This document shows, one piece after another, positions 25,175-32,494 of a DNA stretch of 64,000 bases. Made by a program: the position numbers and the translations under genes. Position 1 is the stretch's first letter; each line of letters starts with the position of its first letter. A model generated the notes under the pieces. The model saw nothing but the letters and a program-made list of their open reading frames with translations. It made no database searches and was not told the origin of the DNA. This DNA comes from Leifsonia shinshuensis (GTDB lineage: Bacteria; Actinomycetota; Actinomycetes; Actinomycetales; Microbacteriaceae), in contig NZ_JAVDVK010000001.1 of the NCBI RefSeq assembly GCF_031456835.1, forward strand, positions 2,914,001 through 2,978,000, in the 5' to 3' direction.

Positions 25175-25750
25175 ATGACCGCGACCACCGCCGCGACCGC
25201 GACCACGCGCCGTCCGACCGACCTGGAGCTGCTGAGCCTGGTGCGCGAGGGTGAGCACGCGCACTTCGGGGAGATCTGGAACCGCTACCAGGGCTGGGCT
25301 CACCACGTGGCCCGCTCGACCACGGCGCGGTACGACGCCGAGGACATCGTGCAGGAGGCGTTCGCGAAGGTGCTCACGTCCCTTCGTAACGGAAACGGTC
25401 CGCGGGAGGGGTTCGCCCACTACCTGCGCACGGCGATCCGTAACGTCGCCGCCACCTGGGGCGGGCGCGACTCCCGCGCCACCATGGTGCCCTTCACGCC
25501 CGACACCGCCCTGGGCAGCTATGAGTTCGAGGTCACCGACCTCGGCGACCTCGAGCAGCCGTTCCGTCAGCTGCCGGAGCGGTGGCAGCAGGTGCTGCAC
25601 CTGTCCTGCCTGCAGGGGCTGCCGATGGCCACCGTGGCCGAGACGATGGGGATGACCGTCGGCGCGGCCACCGCCCTCGCCGCCCGCGCCCGCCGGGGCC
25701 TGCGCGAGTCCCTCGCCGCCACCCGCGACGACTACGCGGTCGCCGCCTGA
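25175..25750 (+). CDS. ECF-type RNA polymerase sigma factor (soluble paralogue)
   Basis: This 191-residue sigma-70-family protein has region 2 (about 20-95: YDAEDIVQEAFAKVL, GFAHYLRTAIRNVAATW) and region 4 (about 125-180: LPERWQQVLHLSCLQGLPMA, helix-turn-helix VAETMGMTVGAATALAARAR). It shares the unusual block GNGPREGF / RNVA with the sigma part of the fusion at 30441-32405, so the two are paralogues. No anti-sigma gene is adjacent. GAGGAG precedes the ATG. Confidence 0.9.
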   Translation: MTATTAATATTRRPTDLELLSLVREGEHAHFGEIWNRYQGWAHHVARSTTARYDAEDIVQEAFAKVLTSLRNGNGPREGFAHYLRTAIRNVAATWGGRDSRATMVPFTPDTALGSYEFEVTDLGDLEQPFRQLPERWQQVLHLSCLQGLPMATVAETMGMTVGAATALAARARRGLRESLAATRDDYAVAA

Positions 25751-28440: not shown

Positions 28441-28611
28441 TCATAACGTCTCCGGCTCGTCGAGACACCACTCCAGTTCGACGCCCGAACGCAGGCAGAC
28501 TCGGACCGTCTGACCCACGATCACGACCCGTTCCACCTCCGGGTCGTCGAAGGCTCGGCGCCAGGCGCCGAGCCGGCGTGCCGGGATGTCGTCGCCGTCG
28601 TCCACACTCAC
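28441..28611 (-). CDS. Small protein of unknown function, paralogue of the adjacent gene
   Basis: About 56 residues. The C-terminal VRVCLRSGVELEWCLDEPETL matches VRLYSGIELEYDLETW of the downstream small protein. GTG starts at 28611 or 28605 follow a GGGGG run. A 10-base palindrome TTCGCGCGAA (28429-28438) lies just after its stop. Its 5' side is near, and divergent from, the HtrA-like gene. No family recognised. Confidence 0.55.
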   Translation of the reverse strand: MSVDDGDDIPARRLGAWRRAFDDPEVERVVIVGQTVRVCLRSGVELEWCLDEPETL

Positions 28612-28786
28612 CCCCGTCCTGCCCGCCGCCCCGGGCACGAGGCCAGCTTCTCCTGAACAGGGTGCCTTGGCTACGTGGATGAACCACTGCGACGCCCTCG
28701 GACCCACCGTTCGCGGCCGGAACTGTCTATCCCTGCCGATGCCGGGCGTCCACCATACCGATGTGGGAGCAGAGACGGGGGAACCC

Positions 28787-29911
28787 ATGACCTCAGCCGA
28801 CAACGGAAAAGAGCAGCGGCCGGGCCACTTCCCGGTGTGGGCGATCGTCCTCCTGGCGGTCCTGGGCGCCGTCATCCTGCTCGGCGCCGGAACGCTCGGC
28901 GGCCTCGCCATCCGGGGTGCCGGAACTCTGGGGAGTGCGCTGACGGCGTCGCGCGCGCCGACGGTGTCCACGCAGTCGGTGTGCGACGCGGAGCAGGTCG
29001 CCCGCGACGTCCTGCCGACGATCGTGACGATCGGAGTCTCTGCAGCGGACGGTTCCGGCGGCACCGGGAGCGGCGAGGTGATCACGTCGGACGGCTACAT
29101 CCTGACGAACAACCACGTGATCGCACCGGCGGCCGAGGGCGCGGAGATCACCGTGCTCTACAGCGACGGCTCCACCCACCCGGCGAAGCTCGTGGGGCGC
29201 TCGCCGCGTGCCGACGTCGCAGTCGTGAAGGTGGATGCGTCGGGCTTGCCCGTCATCCAGCAGGGCGACTCGACCACCTTGCAGGTGGGCCAGCCGGTGG
29301 TCGCGCTGGGCGCGCCGCTCGGGCTGTCCAGCACCGTGACGACCGGCGTGGTGAGCGCGCTCGGCCGGACCGTGCCGGTGCAGAGCGACACCGACCGGAA
29401 CGCCGTGCTGGCGGATGCGATCCAGACGGACGCGTCCATCAACCCCGGCAACTCCGGCGGTGCGCTGGTGGACTGCGAGGGCAGGCTCGTCGGCGTCAAC
29501 TCCGCCATTGCGACAGTGCCCGGCGCCAACGGTGTCGCGGGCGGCGGGAGCGTCGGGATCGGGTTCGCGATCCCGGAGGCGGTGGCCATCCCGATCGCGC
29601 AGCAGATCATCGAGACCGGGAAGGTCGTGTACCCGACCTTCGGCATCGGCGTCGCTCCGATCCAGGCGGGACAGCAGGGCAGCGAACAGACGGGGCTGTA
29701 CGTGCAGTCCGTGACGCCCGGAGGCCCGGCCGATCAGGCGGGGATCCAGCCGGGCGACATCATCACCCGGGTCGACGGGAAGCCGGTCGGCAGCATCGAC
29801 GACCTGACGGCGATCCAGCTGACGCATCAGCCGGGCGATCAGGTGAAGGTGACCCACGAGCGTGACGGGAAGAGCACGACGACCGAGGTCACCCTCGGAA
29901 GCGGTTCGTAG
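28787..29911 (+). CDS. Membrane-anchored HtrA/DegP-like serine protease with PDZ domain
   Basis: This 374-residue protein has one membrane helix (about 17-40), a trypsin-like domain with His110 (LTNNHV), Asp143 (RADVAVVK) and Ser223 (NPGNSGGA), and a C-terminal PDZ domain (GLYVQSVTPGGPADQAGIQP). Such proteases degrade or survey misfolded envelope proteins and can cleave anti-sigma factors. ATG 28787 follows GGGGGAA; an in-frame ATG at 28739 is less likely. It converges within three bases on the next gene. Confidence 0.92.
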   Translation: MTSADNGKEQRPGHFPVWAIVLLAVLGAVILLGAGTLGGLAIRGAGTLGSALTASRAPTVSTQSVCDAEQVARDVLPTIVTIGVSAADGSGGTGSGEVITSDGYILTNNHVIAPAAEGAEITVLYSDGSTHPAKLVGRSPRADVAVVKVDASGLPVIQQGDSTTLQVGQPVVALGAPLGLSSTVTTGVVSALGRTVPVQSDTDRNAVLADAIQTDASINPGNSGGALVDCEGRLVGVNSAIATVPGANGVAGGGSVGIGFAIPEAVAIPIAQQIIETGKVVYPTFGIGVAPIQAGQQGSEQTGLYVQSVTPGGPADQAGIQPGDIITRVDGKPVGSIDDLTAIQLTHQPGDQVKVTHERDGKSTTTEVTLGSGS

Positions 29912-29914
29912 CCG

Positions 29915-30193
29915 TCAGAGCGCCAGCTGCGGGTCGAAGCTGCTCTTGAAGCGGTCGATGATCCGGTAGCTGTCCGACGGGCCCGGCTCCTCGATCCGCA
30001 CGGTGTCGTAGACGCGGAAGTCGAGCGTTCGCAGTTCGTTCAGGCGCTCCGACCGCTCGTTCAGCAGAGCCGACCGCAGGGGTTCTGCCGGGTCGCGCGG
30101 GATGAGCGGTGTGACGACCTCCCCTCGCCAGCCGTCGGTGATGACGCTGATCAGCCGCGCTGCACGCTCGCGCGGATTGAACGTGGGTGCCAC
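29915..30193 (-). CDS. Small protein of unknown function
   Basis: This protein of about 92 residues has no recognisable domain. Features are RERAARLISVITDGWRGEVV and a conserved-looking YRIIDRFKSSFDPQ end. AAAGGA lies eight bases before GTG 30193, favouring it over ATG 30202. Base composition and codon bias fit a real gene. It lies downstream of the fused sigma-factor gene on the same strand, separated by a repeat-rich gap. Confidence 0.65.
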   Translation of the reverse strand: MAPTFNPRERAARLISVITDGWRGEVVTPLIPRDPAEPLRSALLNERSERLNELRTLDFRVYDTVRIEEPGPSDSYRIIDRFKSSFDPQLAL

Positions 30194-30230
30194 GATCCTC
30201 ATCCTTTCGAGTCACGGCGCCGCGTTGGGC

Positions 30231-30284: not shown

Positions 30285-30335
30285 GTGGAGTGGCCCAGTG
30301 CCTGCTGTACCCGACCACAGGCCGGGCCACTCCAC
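30285..30335. repeat. Strong composite inverted repeat
   Basis: GTGGAGTGGCCC (30285-30296) and GGGCCACTCCAC (30324-30335) are perfect 12-base arms. An inner stem GCCTG (30300-30304) / CAGGC (30318-30322) continues the structure. On the plus strand a GAGGAG ribosome-binding site and a six-codon frame (MRTATR, ATG at 30349) follow. It may be a terminator for the fused-sigma gene read on the minus strand, or a regulatory RNA element; there is no T run. Confidence 0.55.
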
Positions 30336-30440
30336 GAGGAGACGGTGCATGCGCACCGCAACCCGGTGAGAGCGCGAAGCCCGATTCATGCTCTCAACCG
30401 AAGAAGACGCAGGTTCCGCCGGATCATGACGGGCTCGCCG

Positions 30441-32405
30441 TCAATCGCTCAGCTCCCACTGCGCCTGGATCTGCGCGGGCGTCAGCGCGACGGAGTAGAC
30501 CGCGGCGTACGCGAGCTCTCCGGAGAACTGGTACCGGCTCGGGGTGTCCGGTCCCCAGTTGCCGAGGGTGTCGTAGCCGACACGCCAGAAGCCCGCGAAG
30601 TCCTCCGCGTGCGTGACGGAGGGGTCGCTCGCGACCGGTTCGCCGTCGACGTAGAGCGCCATCCCGGCGGGGGAGAGCGTCGCGGTCGCCTGGTGCCACC
30701 GGTCGTCGGCGTAGCTCCGTGCGGAGGCGACCGTGTGGACGGCCCCCGGGAACACACCGAAGACGACGCGGCCGTCGTCGGCCAGGAAGAGATGGCGGTC
30801 GTAGTGCGCGGACGGTCCACGCTCGGAGTCGCTGTATCCGATGAGGCGCCCGCCGCCGACAGCGGTCTTGAACCAGATCTGGATGCTGAACACGTCTGCG
30901 GGGTCACGGCGCGTCTGCTCGCAGAGCGACCACGTGCCGGCGGCATCGGGCCGGTCGTAGCGGGCTTCGCGCTCGTGGACGAAGTCGACGGCCGTCGGCG
31001 CCGCACCGTCGTCGAGCCGGTAGGCGAGCAGCGTGTCGTCGGCGGGGACGGACCGGATCGCCGCCTCGCGCCCGGGCGAGCTGGTCGGCGCGCCGGGATC
31101 GATCGGCGACGTCTCGGTGCCGCCGGTCTCCTCGGTGTTGTCGACCTCGGTGTTGTCGACCTCGGTGTTGTCGACCTCGGTGTTGTCGACCTCGGTGTTG
31201 TCAGCCTCGACCTCATCGGCGTCGGGAGGTGTCGACTCTTCGTCGGCGGGGATCTCCGCAGTGTCGTCCTGCTCCTCTTCGGACACCGCGCCGGGGTCCT
31301 CCGGCGCCGGTTCGGCCGGCTCCACGGCATCCACCGGATCGGCCTGCGCCGACGGCGTCTGCGTGTCCGTCAGCGCCGACGGGCTCTCGCCGAGCGCGGG
31401 TTCCGCCGGCTGGCTGCCGAGCACGGTTCCCGCCGTGAGCACCGCCGCCACCATGACGCTCGTGGCGACGGAGGCCAGGGTGGGGGATGAGCTCGCCGCG
31501 GTCGCGGCGACGGTCGTGAGGCCGGGGTGCTGGCTCGCGGCGGTCAGCAGACCCTTCACGCCTCCGCCCGGGAGGGACGGAAGCGCGCTCGGCAGTGTGG
31601 CGGCGACGGCGGCGCTCGAGCCGTGCACCCATTCGGTGTACGCGGCGGCCCCACCGACGCCCAGGACGAGCGGCAGGACGGCGAGCGCCAGCCGCGATCC
31701 GACCCGATCCGCCTCGCCGGCCGCGTCCGAGCACGACGAGCACTCCTGCAGATGACGCAGAAGCCGGCGTTGGTCGGTCTTCGAGAGCCGTCCGCGCACG
31801 TGACTGCCCAGCCGCTTGATGGTCCACGCGTGTGCGGGGTCACCCGGCCCTGCTTCCGCCAGGTGGGCGTTGATCCAGGTCTGGCGGAGGCCCTCCCTGG
31901 CGCGAACGGCGAGGGCGGACACGGCATTCGGCGAGAGGCCGAGCAGGGGAGCGACATCGCGGGGGGACATCTCCTCGACCTGCGTGTACCAGAGCACCTC
32001 CTGCCAACTGTCGGGCAGTGCGTAGAACGCCTTGGCGATCGTCTCGCGCTCGATCTTGTCGAGCGCGGTGAGCTCGCTGTAGGACCAGTCCTCCAGTGCA
32101 TCGGGGTCTTCGAGATTGGGCGACGACTTGCGACGCGACCAGTCGATGGCGACGTTGCGCACGGTCGTTCCGAGGTAGGAACGGAAGCCGCTCCGCGGTC
32201 CATTGCCCTTCTCGACGGCTTTCAGGATGCGTGCGAACGCCTCGGAGGCGAGGTCGTCGGGCTCGAAGCGGTTGGTGATGGAGGTGGCCATGGCGCGCGC
32301 GGCGTTCCAGTGCCGCTTCCAGAGGACGCCGTAGGCCGCCGCGTCCTTCTCCCGGGCGCGGGCGAGCAGATCGGCGTCGGAGAGGTCGTCGAGTTCTTGG
32401 GTCAT
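30441..32405 (-). CDS. Membrane-tethered ECF sigma factor fused to zinc anti-sigma domain and LamG-like domain
   Basis: One uninterrupted 654-residue frame. Residues 15-92 are sigma region 2 and 120-178 sigma region 4 (MSPRDVAPLLGLSPNAVSAL). Residues 190-232 form a zinc-binding anti-sigma-like domain with the His-x3-Cys-x2-Cys motif (His218, Cys222, Cys225). Hydrophobic segments lie at 238-256 and 311-330. Then come a long acidic Pro/Glu linker with five DNTEV repeats (402-426) and a concanavalin/LamG-like domain (456-654: FSIQIWFKTA, RHLFLADDGRVVFG, DRWHQATATLSPAGMALYVDG). Sigma factor, inhibitor and presumed sensor are thus one polypeptide. An M23 peptidase lies upstream. Confidence 0.92.
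   Translation of the reverse strand: MTQELDDLSDADLLARAREKDAAAYGVLWKRHWNAARAMATSITNRFEPDDLASEAFARILKAVEKGNGPRSGFRSYLGTTVRNVAIDWSRRKSSPNLEDPDALEDWSYSELTALDKIERETIAKAFYALPDSWQEVLWYTQVEEMSPRDVAPLLGLSPNAVSALAVRAREGLRQTWINAHLAEAGPGDPAHAWTIKRLGSHVRGRLSKTDQRRLLRHLQECSSCSDAAGEADRVGSRLALAVLPLVLGVGGAAAYTEWVHGSSAAVAATLPSALPSLPGGGVKGLLTAASQHPGLTTVAATAASSSPTLASVATSVMVAAVLTAGTVLGSQPAEPALGESPSALTDTQTPSAQADPVDAVEPAEPAPEDPGAVSEEEQDDTAEIPADEESTPPDADEVEADNTEVDNTEVDNTEVDNTEVDNTEETGGTETSPIDPGAPTSSPGREAAIRSVPADDTLLAYRLDDGAAPTAVDFVHEREARYDRPDAAGTWSLCEQTRRDPADVFSIQIWFKTAVGGGRLIGYSDSERGPSAHYDRHLFLADDGRVVFGVFPGAVHTVASARSYADDRWHQATATLSPAGMALYVDGEPVASDPSVTHAEDFAGFWRVGYDTLGNWGPDTPSRYQFSGELAYAAVYSVALTPAQIQAQWELSD
31131..31205 (-). 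repeat. Five 15-base tandem repeats encoding DNTEV
   Basis: The plus-strand unit CTCGGTGTTGTCGAC begins at 31131, 31146, 31161 and 31176 as perfect copies; a fifth unit at 31191 has a changed end. Translated on the minus strand they give DNTEV pentapeptides in the linker of the fused sigma factor. Perfect units suggest recent expansion and variable length. Confidence 0.9.
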
Positions 32406-32470
32406 AAGGGTCGGGTCCTTACGGGCAGGGCAGGGGTTTACCTACCTAGACGGAGGGGGGACGCGATCGT

Positions 32471-32494
32471 GACGCGGCCCTGCGAAAAAAGTTC
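32471..32494 (-). promoter_or_regulatory. Candidate ECF-type promoter of the fused sigma gene
   Basis: Read on the minus strand, GAAC (32494-32491) is followed by 16 bases and then CGTC (32474-32471). This is the usual ECF -35/-10 combination. The start codon at 32405 is about 60 bases downstream. Autoregulation by the encoded sigma factor is a natural inference. Confidence 0.5.

Follow-up and report, generated by a model that had tools for sequence, protein, structure and literature searches.

Gene content of the locus and architecture of the fused sigma factor

The window, i.e., the whole 64-kb stretch of DNA analysed here, carries on its minus strand a single open frame in which a sigma factor, a zinc anti-sigma (ZAS) domain, two hydrophobic segments, a stalk and a LamG domain follow one another. 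Promoter-like sites, a structured RNA region, a small-protein gene, a second sigma factor and a protease gene accompany it, at the following window positions.

30441..32405, minus strand: sigLamG (name used here), the whole fused-sigma ORF, 654 aa, ATG start (sequence and homologues)
32124..32321, minus strand: sigma-70 region 2, residues 29-94 (PF04542 over cut-off)
31893..32021, minus strand: sigma-70 region 4, residues 129-171 (PF08281 below cut-off; TIGR02937 over cut-off)
31731..31832, minus strand: ZAS ligand stretch, H192 to C225 (zf-HC2 over cut-off; invariant ligands)
31635..31691, minus strand: hydrophobic segment H1, residues 239-257, considered non-spanning (hydropathy and charge)
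31419..31475, minus strand: hydrophobic segment H2, residues 311-329, judged to be the membrane span (hydropathy and charge)
31065..31418, minus strand: stalk, acidic, Pro-rich and with repeats, residues 330-447 (sequence; charge after H2)
30465..30899, minus strand: LamG domain, residues 503-647 (PF13385, 53.6 bits)
32449..32474, minus strand: P1, CGTCAY-N16-CGTC, promoter-like, 70 nt before the ORF (9/9 loci)
30406..30431, minus strand: P2, second promoter-like site, begins 10 nt after the stop (9/9 loci)
30285..30405, minus strand: predicted structured RNA region after P2, given as region bounds and not as a mapped transcript (folding and covariation)
29915..30202, minus strand: orf95, small protein without a Pfam match (orthologues in the same 9/28 genomes)
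25175..25750, plus strand: sig191, soluble sister sigma factor of the same locus (PF04542 and PF08281)
28586..29911, plus strand: HtrA-like trypsin/PDZ protease gene (htrA), start codon provisional, candidate protease (8/9 loci)

The preliminary description had read sigma regions 2 and 4, a ZAS domain and a LamG-like end in one frame, and the profile searches recovered them with one weaker score. Against the Pfam cut-offs, Sigma70_r2 (residues 29-94) scored 37.2 bits (cut-off 24), zf-HC2 (residues 196-225) 23.6 bits (cut-off 22.2) and Laminin_G_3 (residues 503-647) 53.6 bits (cut-off 27.6), while Sigma70_r4_2 (residues 129-171) stayed at 21.7 bits, under its cut-off of 25.7. TIGR02937, the sigma70-ECF model, covers both regions (residues 27-175, 72.7 bits, cut-off 42.9), and Sigma70_r4_2 was matched in 68/68 relatives scanned (E<=0.01). 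With regions 2 and 4 and no region 3, sigLamG has the make-up of an ECF sigma factor. The His-x3-Cys-x2-Cys motif is intact, as stated before, at H218-x3-C222-x2-C225. H192, H218, C222 and C225 are invariant in 18 aligned LamG-type proteins, and the H192 position is a Cys in four other relatives compared. In a profile comparison the LamG domain also matched 4qvs_A (E=4.4e-4), an S-layer domain-containing protein.

The nine loci, including that of the window, have a largely constant content. sig191, orf95 and a PAP2 gene are found in 9/9, htrA in 8/9 (not G015), a LuxR-type gene in 8/9 (not G009) and an M23 gene in 3/9. Orthologues of sig191 are 61-100% identical and occur in the same 9/28 genomes, with other matches at most 44% identical.

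Homologues and distribution

Sigma70_r2 and LamG occur together in one protein of 615-695 aa in 29/113 homologues listed, from a search that scored the 8000 candidates with the most shared words. This recurrence and the single open frame exclude two separate proteins or a frameshift artefact. The zf-HC2 domain is also listed in 27 of the 29, and those among the 29 that carry an organism name are Leifsonia. In a FastTree phylogeny of the sigma/ZAS part, P0001-P0031 form one clade (support 1.0), of which 30/31 have LamG and P0031 is without it; under midpoint rooting, the sister group comprises 26 proteins, many with Ig-like Big domains. Within the genus, the sigLamG gene is present in 9/28 genomes.

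At least 529 related stretches were found in a scan of named genomes, and the best 80 of these are mostly Microbacteriaceae by title; LamG occurs in one of the best 80, from Leifsonia sp. CL147. Ten of the 80 loci ran off their contig, leaving 70 for analysis, 69 without the LamG locus and 63 without the six Leifsonia loci. The full relatives (68 of the 70 loci, two long ORFs being excluded) carry zf-HC2 (68), Big_13 (13), Big_6 (13), fn3 (1), GH85_C (1) and LamG (1). LamG is a clade-specific end on a known fused-ECF design. One homologue, P0037 of Leifsonia xyli subsp. cynodontis, is named hemagglutinin/hemolysin-like in its source, and its domains are those of a Big-type fused sigma factor.

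Membrane topology

The hydrophobic segments and repeat stalk noted at the outset proved to be two segments after the ZAS domain, at residues ~239-257 (H1) and ~311-329 (H2), and an acidic repeat stalk. If both H1 and H2 crossed, with the sigma part cytosolic, LamG would be cytosolic too; the earlier proposal of an outside LamG had left this clash with two segments unresolved, and it now gains support from charge. In counts covering 106 of 114 proteins, H2 is more hydrophobic than H1 (mean KD 2.10 vs 1.62). For the loop between the segments the net charge is positive in 68/106 relatives and negative in 13; for the 60 residues that follow H2 it is negative in 90/106 and positive in 8 (+0/-17 in sigLamG). 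Because of this charge pattern over the 106 relatives, we favour a single crossing at H2 that would place LamG outside. sigLamG itself has a neutral loop and an H1 that matches H2 in hydrophobicity, so the topology is one that we infer from its family.

It seems unlikely that H1 and H2 both cross, leaving stalk and LamG in the cytosol and the sigma factor responsive to an internal or membrane signal. Two hydrophobic segments are indeed found in the proteins measured, and in the LamG type H1 nearly equals H2 (mean KD 1.82 vs 2.03) and is free of charged residues in 30/30. Across the relatives, however, a charged residue lies inside H1 in 33/106 and inside H2 in 1/106, and the charges of the loop and of the residues after H2 are the reverse of what the positive-inside rule demands for two spans.

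A recurrent promoter-like motif

CGTCAY-N16/17-CGTC starts 69-73 nt before the sigLamG start codon in 9/9 loci of the upstream alignment (P1). It recurs as P2, whose start lies 6-22 nt past the stop codon in eight loci and which overlaps the stop in the ninth, G001. The pattern is not rarer than chance would make it in the 64-kb window (5 found vs 3.1 expected), so a lone match means little; the evidence is its recurrence at the same two places with differing spacers.

The fixed pattern, derived from the nine sigLamG loci and tested with spacers of 15-18, was present within 360 nt upstream in 16/69 relatives that do not belong to the LamG clade (shuffled sequences: mean 0.5, largest 3). On the other strand it was present in 15/69. 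Leaving out one Leifsonia locus, it precedes 15/63 relatives in other genera. A widened pattern fits 40/63 of them (shuffles: mean 0.18, largest 3), a figure fitted on those very sequences, as the variants came from a dyad count on them and the shuffle was rougher. P2 as a family-wide feature was rejected: it was seen at 6/70 loci only, one being the LamG locus and three having similar sequences 153-174 nt after the stop.

A promoter code shared with htrA or sig191 was also dropped, their conserved upstream elements differing in look. Upstream of sig191 lies a conserved tandem repeat, CGGTAGnnnCTnGGTAGT, exact in 5 loci. Upstream of htrA (~28586-28770) there is an AACTGTCTAkCC-like element, exact in 4 loci and with related sequence in the 8-locus alignment, which is unlike the sigma motif.

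Predicted regulon

The longer pattern CGTCAY-N16/17-CGTCT occurs 27 times in the own genome, against 1 for the reversed control. The nine genomes with sigLamG contain 27, 24, 31, 18, 29, 35, 24, 16 and 33 matches, no more than two per genome being P1 and P2, and the 19 genomes without it contain 5 to 16. The means of 26.3 and 10.5 differ about 2.5-fold (p=4e-5, with genomes that are not independent and kinship ignored). The reversed control is too lenient and underrates the background, since G012 gives 16 matches against 4 for its control. The excess in the sigLamG genomes is moreover confounded, because these nine genomes are also precisely the ones with sig191 and orf95.

This co-inheritance raises the alternative that soluble sig191, not the fused sigma factor, reads the CGTCAY promoters, and that the fused protein serves a different regulon or is itself a target. 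We regard this as quite improbable. Besides its presence in the same nine genomes, sig191 belongs to the same sigma family, and its ALA-RAR-GLR stretch resembles, by eye, the region 4 helix of the fused protein. Against this, relatives of the fused gene in other genera also have the pattern upstream, at the frequencies given above (a count that covered the fused gene's relatives only), and near sig191 in the window no match to CGTCAY-N16/17-CGTC was found, its upstream region having a conserved repeat of another kind.

The placement of matches is consistent with reading by the fused sigma factor. Promoter-like positions account for 18/27 hits in G000, 14/30 in G005, 6/18 in G009, 0/15 in G012, which is without a match to the sigma part, and 3/15 in G040, which has Big-type paralogues. 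In the three genomes with the gene this amounts to 38/75, versus 0/15 in G012 (p=1e-4). These counts used 27/27 hits of G000, 18/18 of G009, 30/33 of G005, 15/16 of G012 and 15/16 of G040, and the gene calls behind them and behind the locus comparisons came from a GC-frame heuristic that is partly wrong, leaving targets such as those at L054, L060 and L072 doubtful.

Behind the motif in both G000 and G005 lie sigLamG, orf95, an ABC ATPase (81% identical), a DUF1345 membrane protein (47%) and a weaker GDSL pair (34%). DUF4190 genes were dropped as a shared target, the proteins of the two genomes being without a BLAST match to each other. Other G000 targets encode exosortase-like, DUF3060 lipoprotein, DUF4190, Big_6 and AI-2E-type proteins and a malate:quinone oxidoreductase. 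A strong hydrophobic segment was found in 26/38 motif targets vs 16/49 window ORFs (p=0.001). The predicted regulon is thus often one of membrane and secreted-protein genes, as judged from sequence.

In the own genome, the exosortase-like gene (L064:813-1439) has the promoter motif 62 nt upstream. The same genome encodes a 1560-aa LamG/PKD surface protein (L168:14917-19599), whose LamG domains are 39-45% identical to that of the sensor and whose gene lies near Wzz-type and sugar-transferase genes (the latter named by eye). We do not claim it as a direct target; the motif closest to it lies 2.5 kb upstream and precedes other genes.

A predicted structured RNA region behind P2, and orf95

The 114-125 nt after P2 form three stem-loops in all nine minimum-energy folds, and the stretch 30400-30206 has a folding z of -4.6. 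The consensus structure keeps hairpins 1 and 3, in which 91.9% of cells are paired vs 87.3 in shuffles, 14 cells are changed on both sides vs 6.1, and the covariation score is 0.321 vs 0.242; 0/500 shuffles were as high for each of the three. Slid controls gave 35-46% paired and 0-3 cells changed on both sides. The number of pairs with change on both sides (6 vs 4.0; 53/500 shuffles as high) and that of further pair types (377 of 500) did not go beyond shuffles. This covariation is good but not final evidence, because the alignment tested is also the source of the structure, and its sequences are related. Three matches to known RNA families at the locus, each under its gathering score, were taken as chance. 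A dispersed element was likewise rejected, the model giving the nine training loci at least 81 bits and the next match 34 bits; an initial pass had scored 128 candidates per genome. By eye, no conserved small ORF was seen within the RNA region at the nine loci.

Downstream, orf95 has orthologues that are 73-100% identical and confined to the same 9/28 genomes, other matches being at E 0.003 or weaker. The 3' hairpin of the RNA region is without a U-run and may be the end of a small RNA, a terminator of the main gene or part of the orf95 leader. For this region the balance is even as to whether P2 is simply the orf95 promoter, with the hairpins serving as leader or main-gene terminator and no RNA role. 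orf95 lies behind P2 in 9/9 loci, the U-run is missing, and at three Big-type loci (L171, L172 and L183) a P2-like site likewise follows the stop, at 64-76 nt, ahead of a small gene of other sequence. The compensatory changes in hairpins 1 and 3, set in a poorly conserved leader sequence, argue the other way.

Big-type paralogues and surface proteins

The 23 Big-type Leifsonia loci have the pattern at most 350 nt upstream in 4 cases and at about -1940 in 3 more; in the rest, none was found within 350 nt upstream. These counts speak against a universal promoter code. For the Big-type paralogue of the own genome (L039), the motif is absent both from the 2.6 kb upstream and from the 400 nt that follow the stop. 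The paralogue at L018 / L189 (G018, a 2.6-Mb genome) contains an in-frame stop codon and is therefore probably broken.

Homologous surface proteins stand beside the Big-type sigma gene at seven distinct Leifsonia loci (L171, L172, L174, L183, L187, L191 and L193; L246 and L218 repeat two of them), co-directional and upstream in five and divergent in two. SdrD_B and Big_8 domains were matched in the two surface proteins that were scanned; their sequences close with LAHTG followed by a hydrophobic stretch and then arginines, a tail that we take to be sortase-like. In L171, L172 and L183 the promoter pattern stands in front, in L187 and L193 it occupies the stretch separating the divergent genes, and in L174 and L191 it was not found. 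Tentatively, and with more doubt than confidence, we suggest that sigLamG makes from P2 a ~120-nt regulatory RNA and, by read-through, orf95, both feeding back on the system, so that a single locus would hold the sensor, the sigma factor and an RNA dependent on it. In this reading, a shared promoter code would link the Big-type paralogues of the genus to surface proteins of the sortase type.

Proposed working of the system

We consider it probable that sigLamG is a one-polypeptide ECF system in which a ZAS-held sigma factor, one membrane span, an outside LamG domain, a release step and a CGTCAY regulon work together. The fused ZAS domain would keep the N-terminal sigma part inactive at the inner face of the membrane, and H2 would be the one span carrying the acidic stalk and LamG outside. 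A surface event sensed by LamG would then set the sigma part free, with regulated proteolysis as the likeliest route. Once released, the sigma factor would read CGTCAY-N16/17-CGTC(T) promoters, among them its own P1, P2 with the structured RNA and then orf95 behind it, and mostly genes for membrane and secreted proteins. The fusion and its conservation, the motif with its placement, and the RNA structure are computed results; that the LamG ligand is a glycan is a guess.

The preliminary description envisaged a membrane-held sigma factor released by proteolysis. The fusion of sigma factor, ZAS domain and anchor supports the first part, and the charge pattern favours an outside LamG, whose binding of a glycan or wall component would be conjecture; for proteolysis the data are consistent only, with one M50 protease in the genome and an HtrA-like gene at 8/9 loci. 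Release might instead be non-proteolytic: zinc loss, oxidation or a conformational change of the ZAS domain would free the sigma regions of a protein that remains tethered or works at the membrane. The zinc ligands are intact, and conformational activation is listed for other extended ECFs in the excerpted part of PMC8999054. The long outside stalk and LamG, however, suggest outside sensing, and the same excerpt has proteolysis expected for ECF48/52/53 and shown for IutY, which leaves us rating release without proteolysis as rather unlikely.

The promoter signature of fused membrane sigma factors is unsettled according to PMC5826349. The motif, which recurs before relatives in several genera, and the P2/RNA of the LamG clade offer reporters for screening ligands, for work with protease mutants and for testing topology, and the ends that vary (LamG, Big, fn3, NPCBM and others) on one sigma/ZAS core form a natural domain-swap series. 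Conserved promoters and a structured RNA make the working of a one-gene sensing system testable.

Comparison with known fused sigma factors

A LamG-type fused sigma factor or this structured RNA was not found in searches of the open-licence literature, and we do not claim absence from print. The CGTCAY motif and the second promoter with its structured RNA are new here. The fused zinc and membrane ECFs named at the outset as ECF52/ECF53 are borne out by PMC8999054 and PMC5826349, which in the parts used describe the same architecture. PMC8999054, in excerpt, describes fused membrane ECFs for ECF48/52/53, and ECF53 with a fused zinc domain, one or two transmembrane helices and a long extension; sigLamG is alike by description, with two hydrophobic segments whose number of crossings is a prediction. 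It has zf-HC2 after the sigma part, as do 68/68 relatives scanned. Some ECF52/ECF53 members have predicted glycosyl hydrolase or carbohydrate-binding domains (PMC10766802, in part).

The closest described case is SCO4117 of Streptomyces coelicolor (ECF52), for which the available part of PMC5826349 reports that losing the extension activated its own expression, and proposes self-activation and proteolytic release. By that description it shares the order of sigma factor, zinc finger (pfam13490), hydrophobic region and, putatively, Pro-rich stretch and carbohydrate-type domain, and residues 8-248 of sigLamG are 41% identical to a Streptomyces NPCBM protein of SCO4117-type architecture. At the C-terminus, sigLamG has a Pro-rich acidic repeat stalk and LamG, whereas SCO4117 has NPCBM. 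Its promoter also differs, CSGYN-17-SRHA for SCO4117 against CGTCAY-N16/17-CGTC for sigLamG (only the motifs were compared); the SCO4117 promoter differs in turn from the predicted ECF52 motif, both being theoretical according to its authors (PMC5826349, same portion). The second promoter at the stop codon is a further difference from SCO4117.

IutY of Pseudomonas putida (ECF243) likewise joins a sigma factor to a membrane-bound anti-sigma part, and PMC8999054 gives its liberation through Prc and RseP as the demonstrated example of proteolysis. It is unlike sigLamG in its ECF group, in iron signalling and in involving the outer membrane. SigI/RsgI of Clostridium thermocellum resembles the present family in that paralogous sigma systems differ in their outside sensor domains, but consists of separate sigma and anti-sigma proteins of another family. 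By its architecture as read from sequence, sigLamG is ECF52/ECF53-like and mostly a known kind of design.
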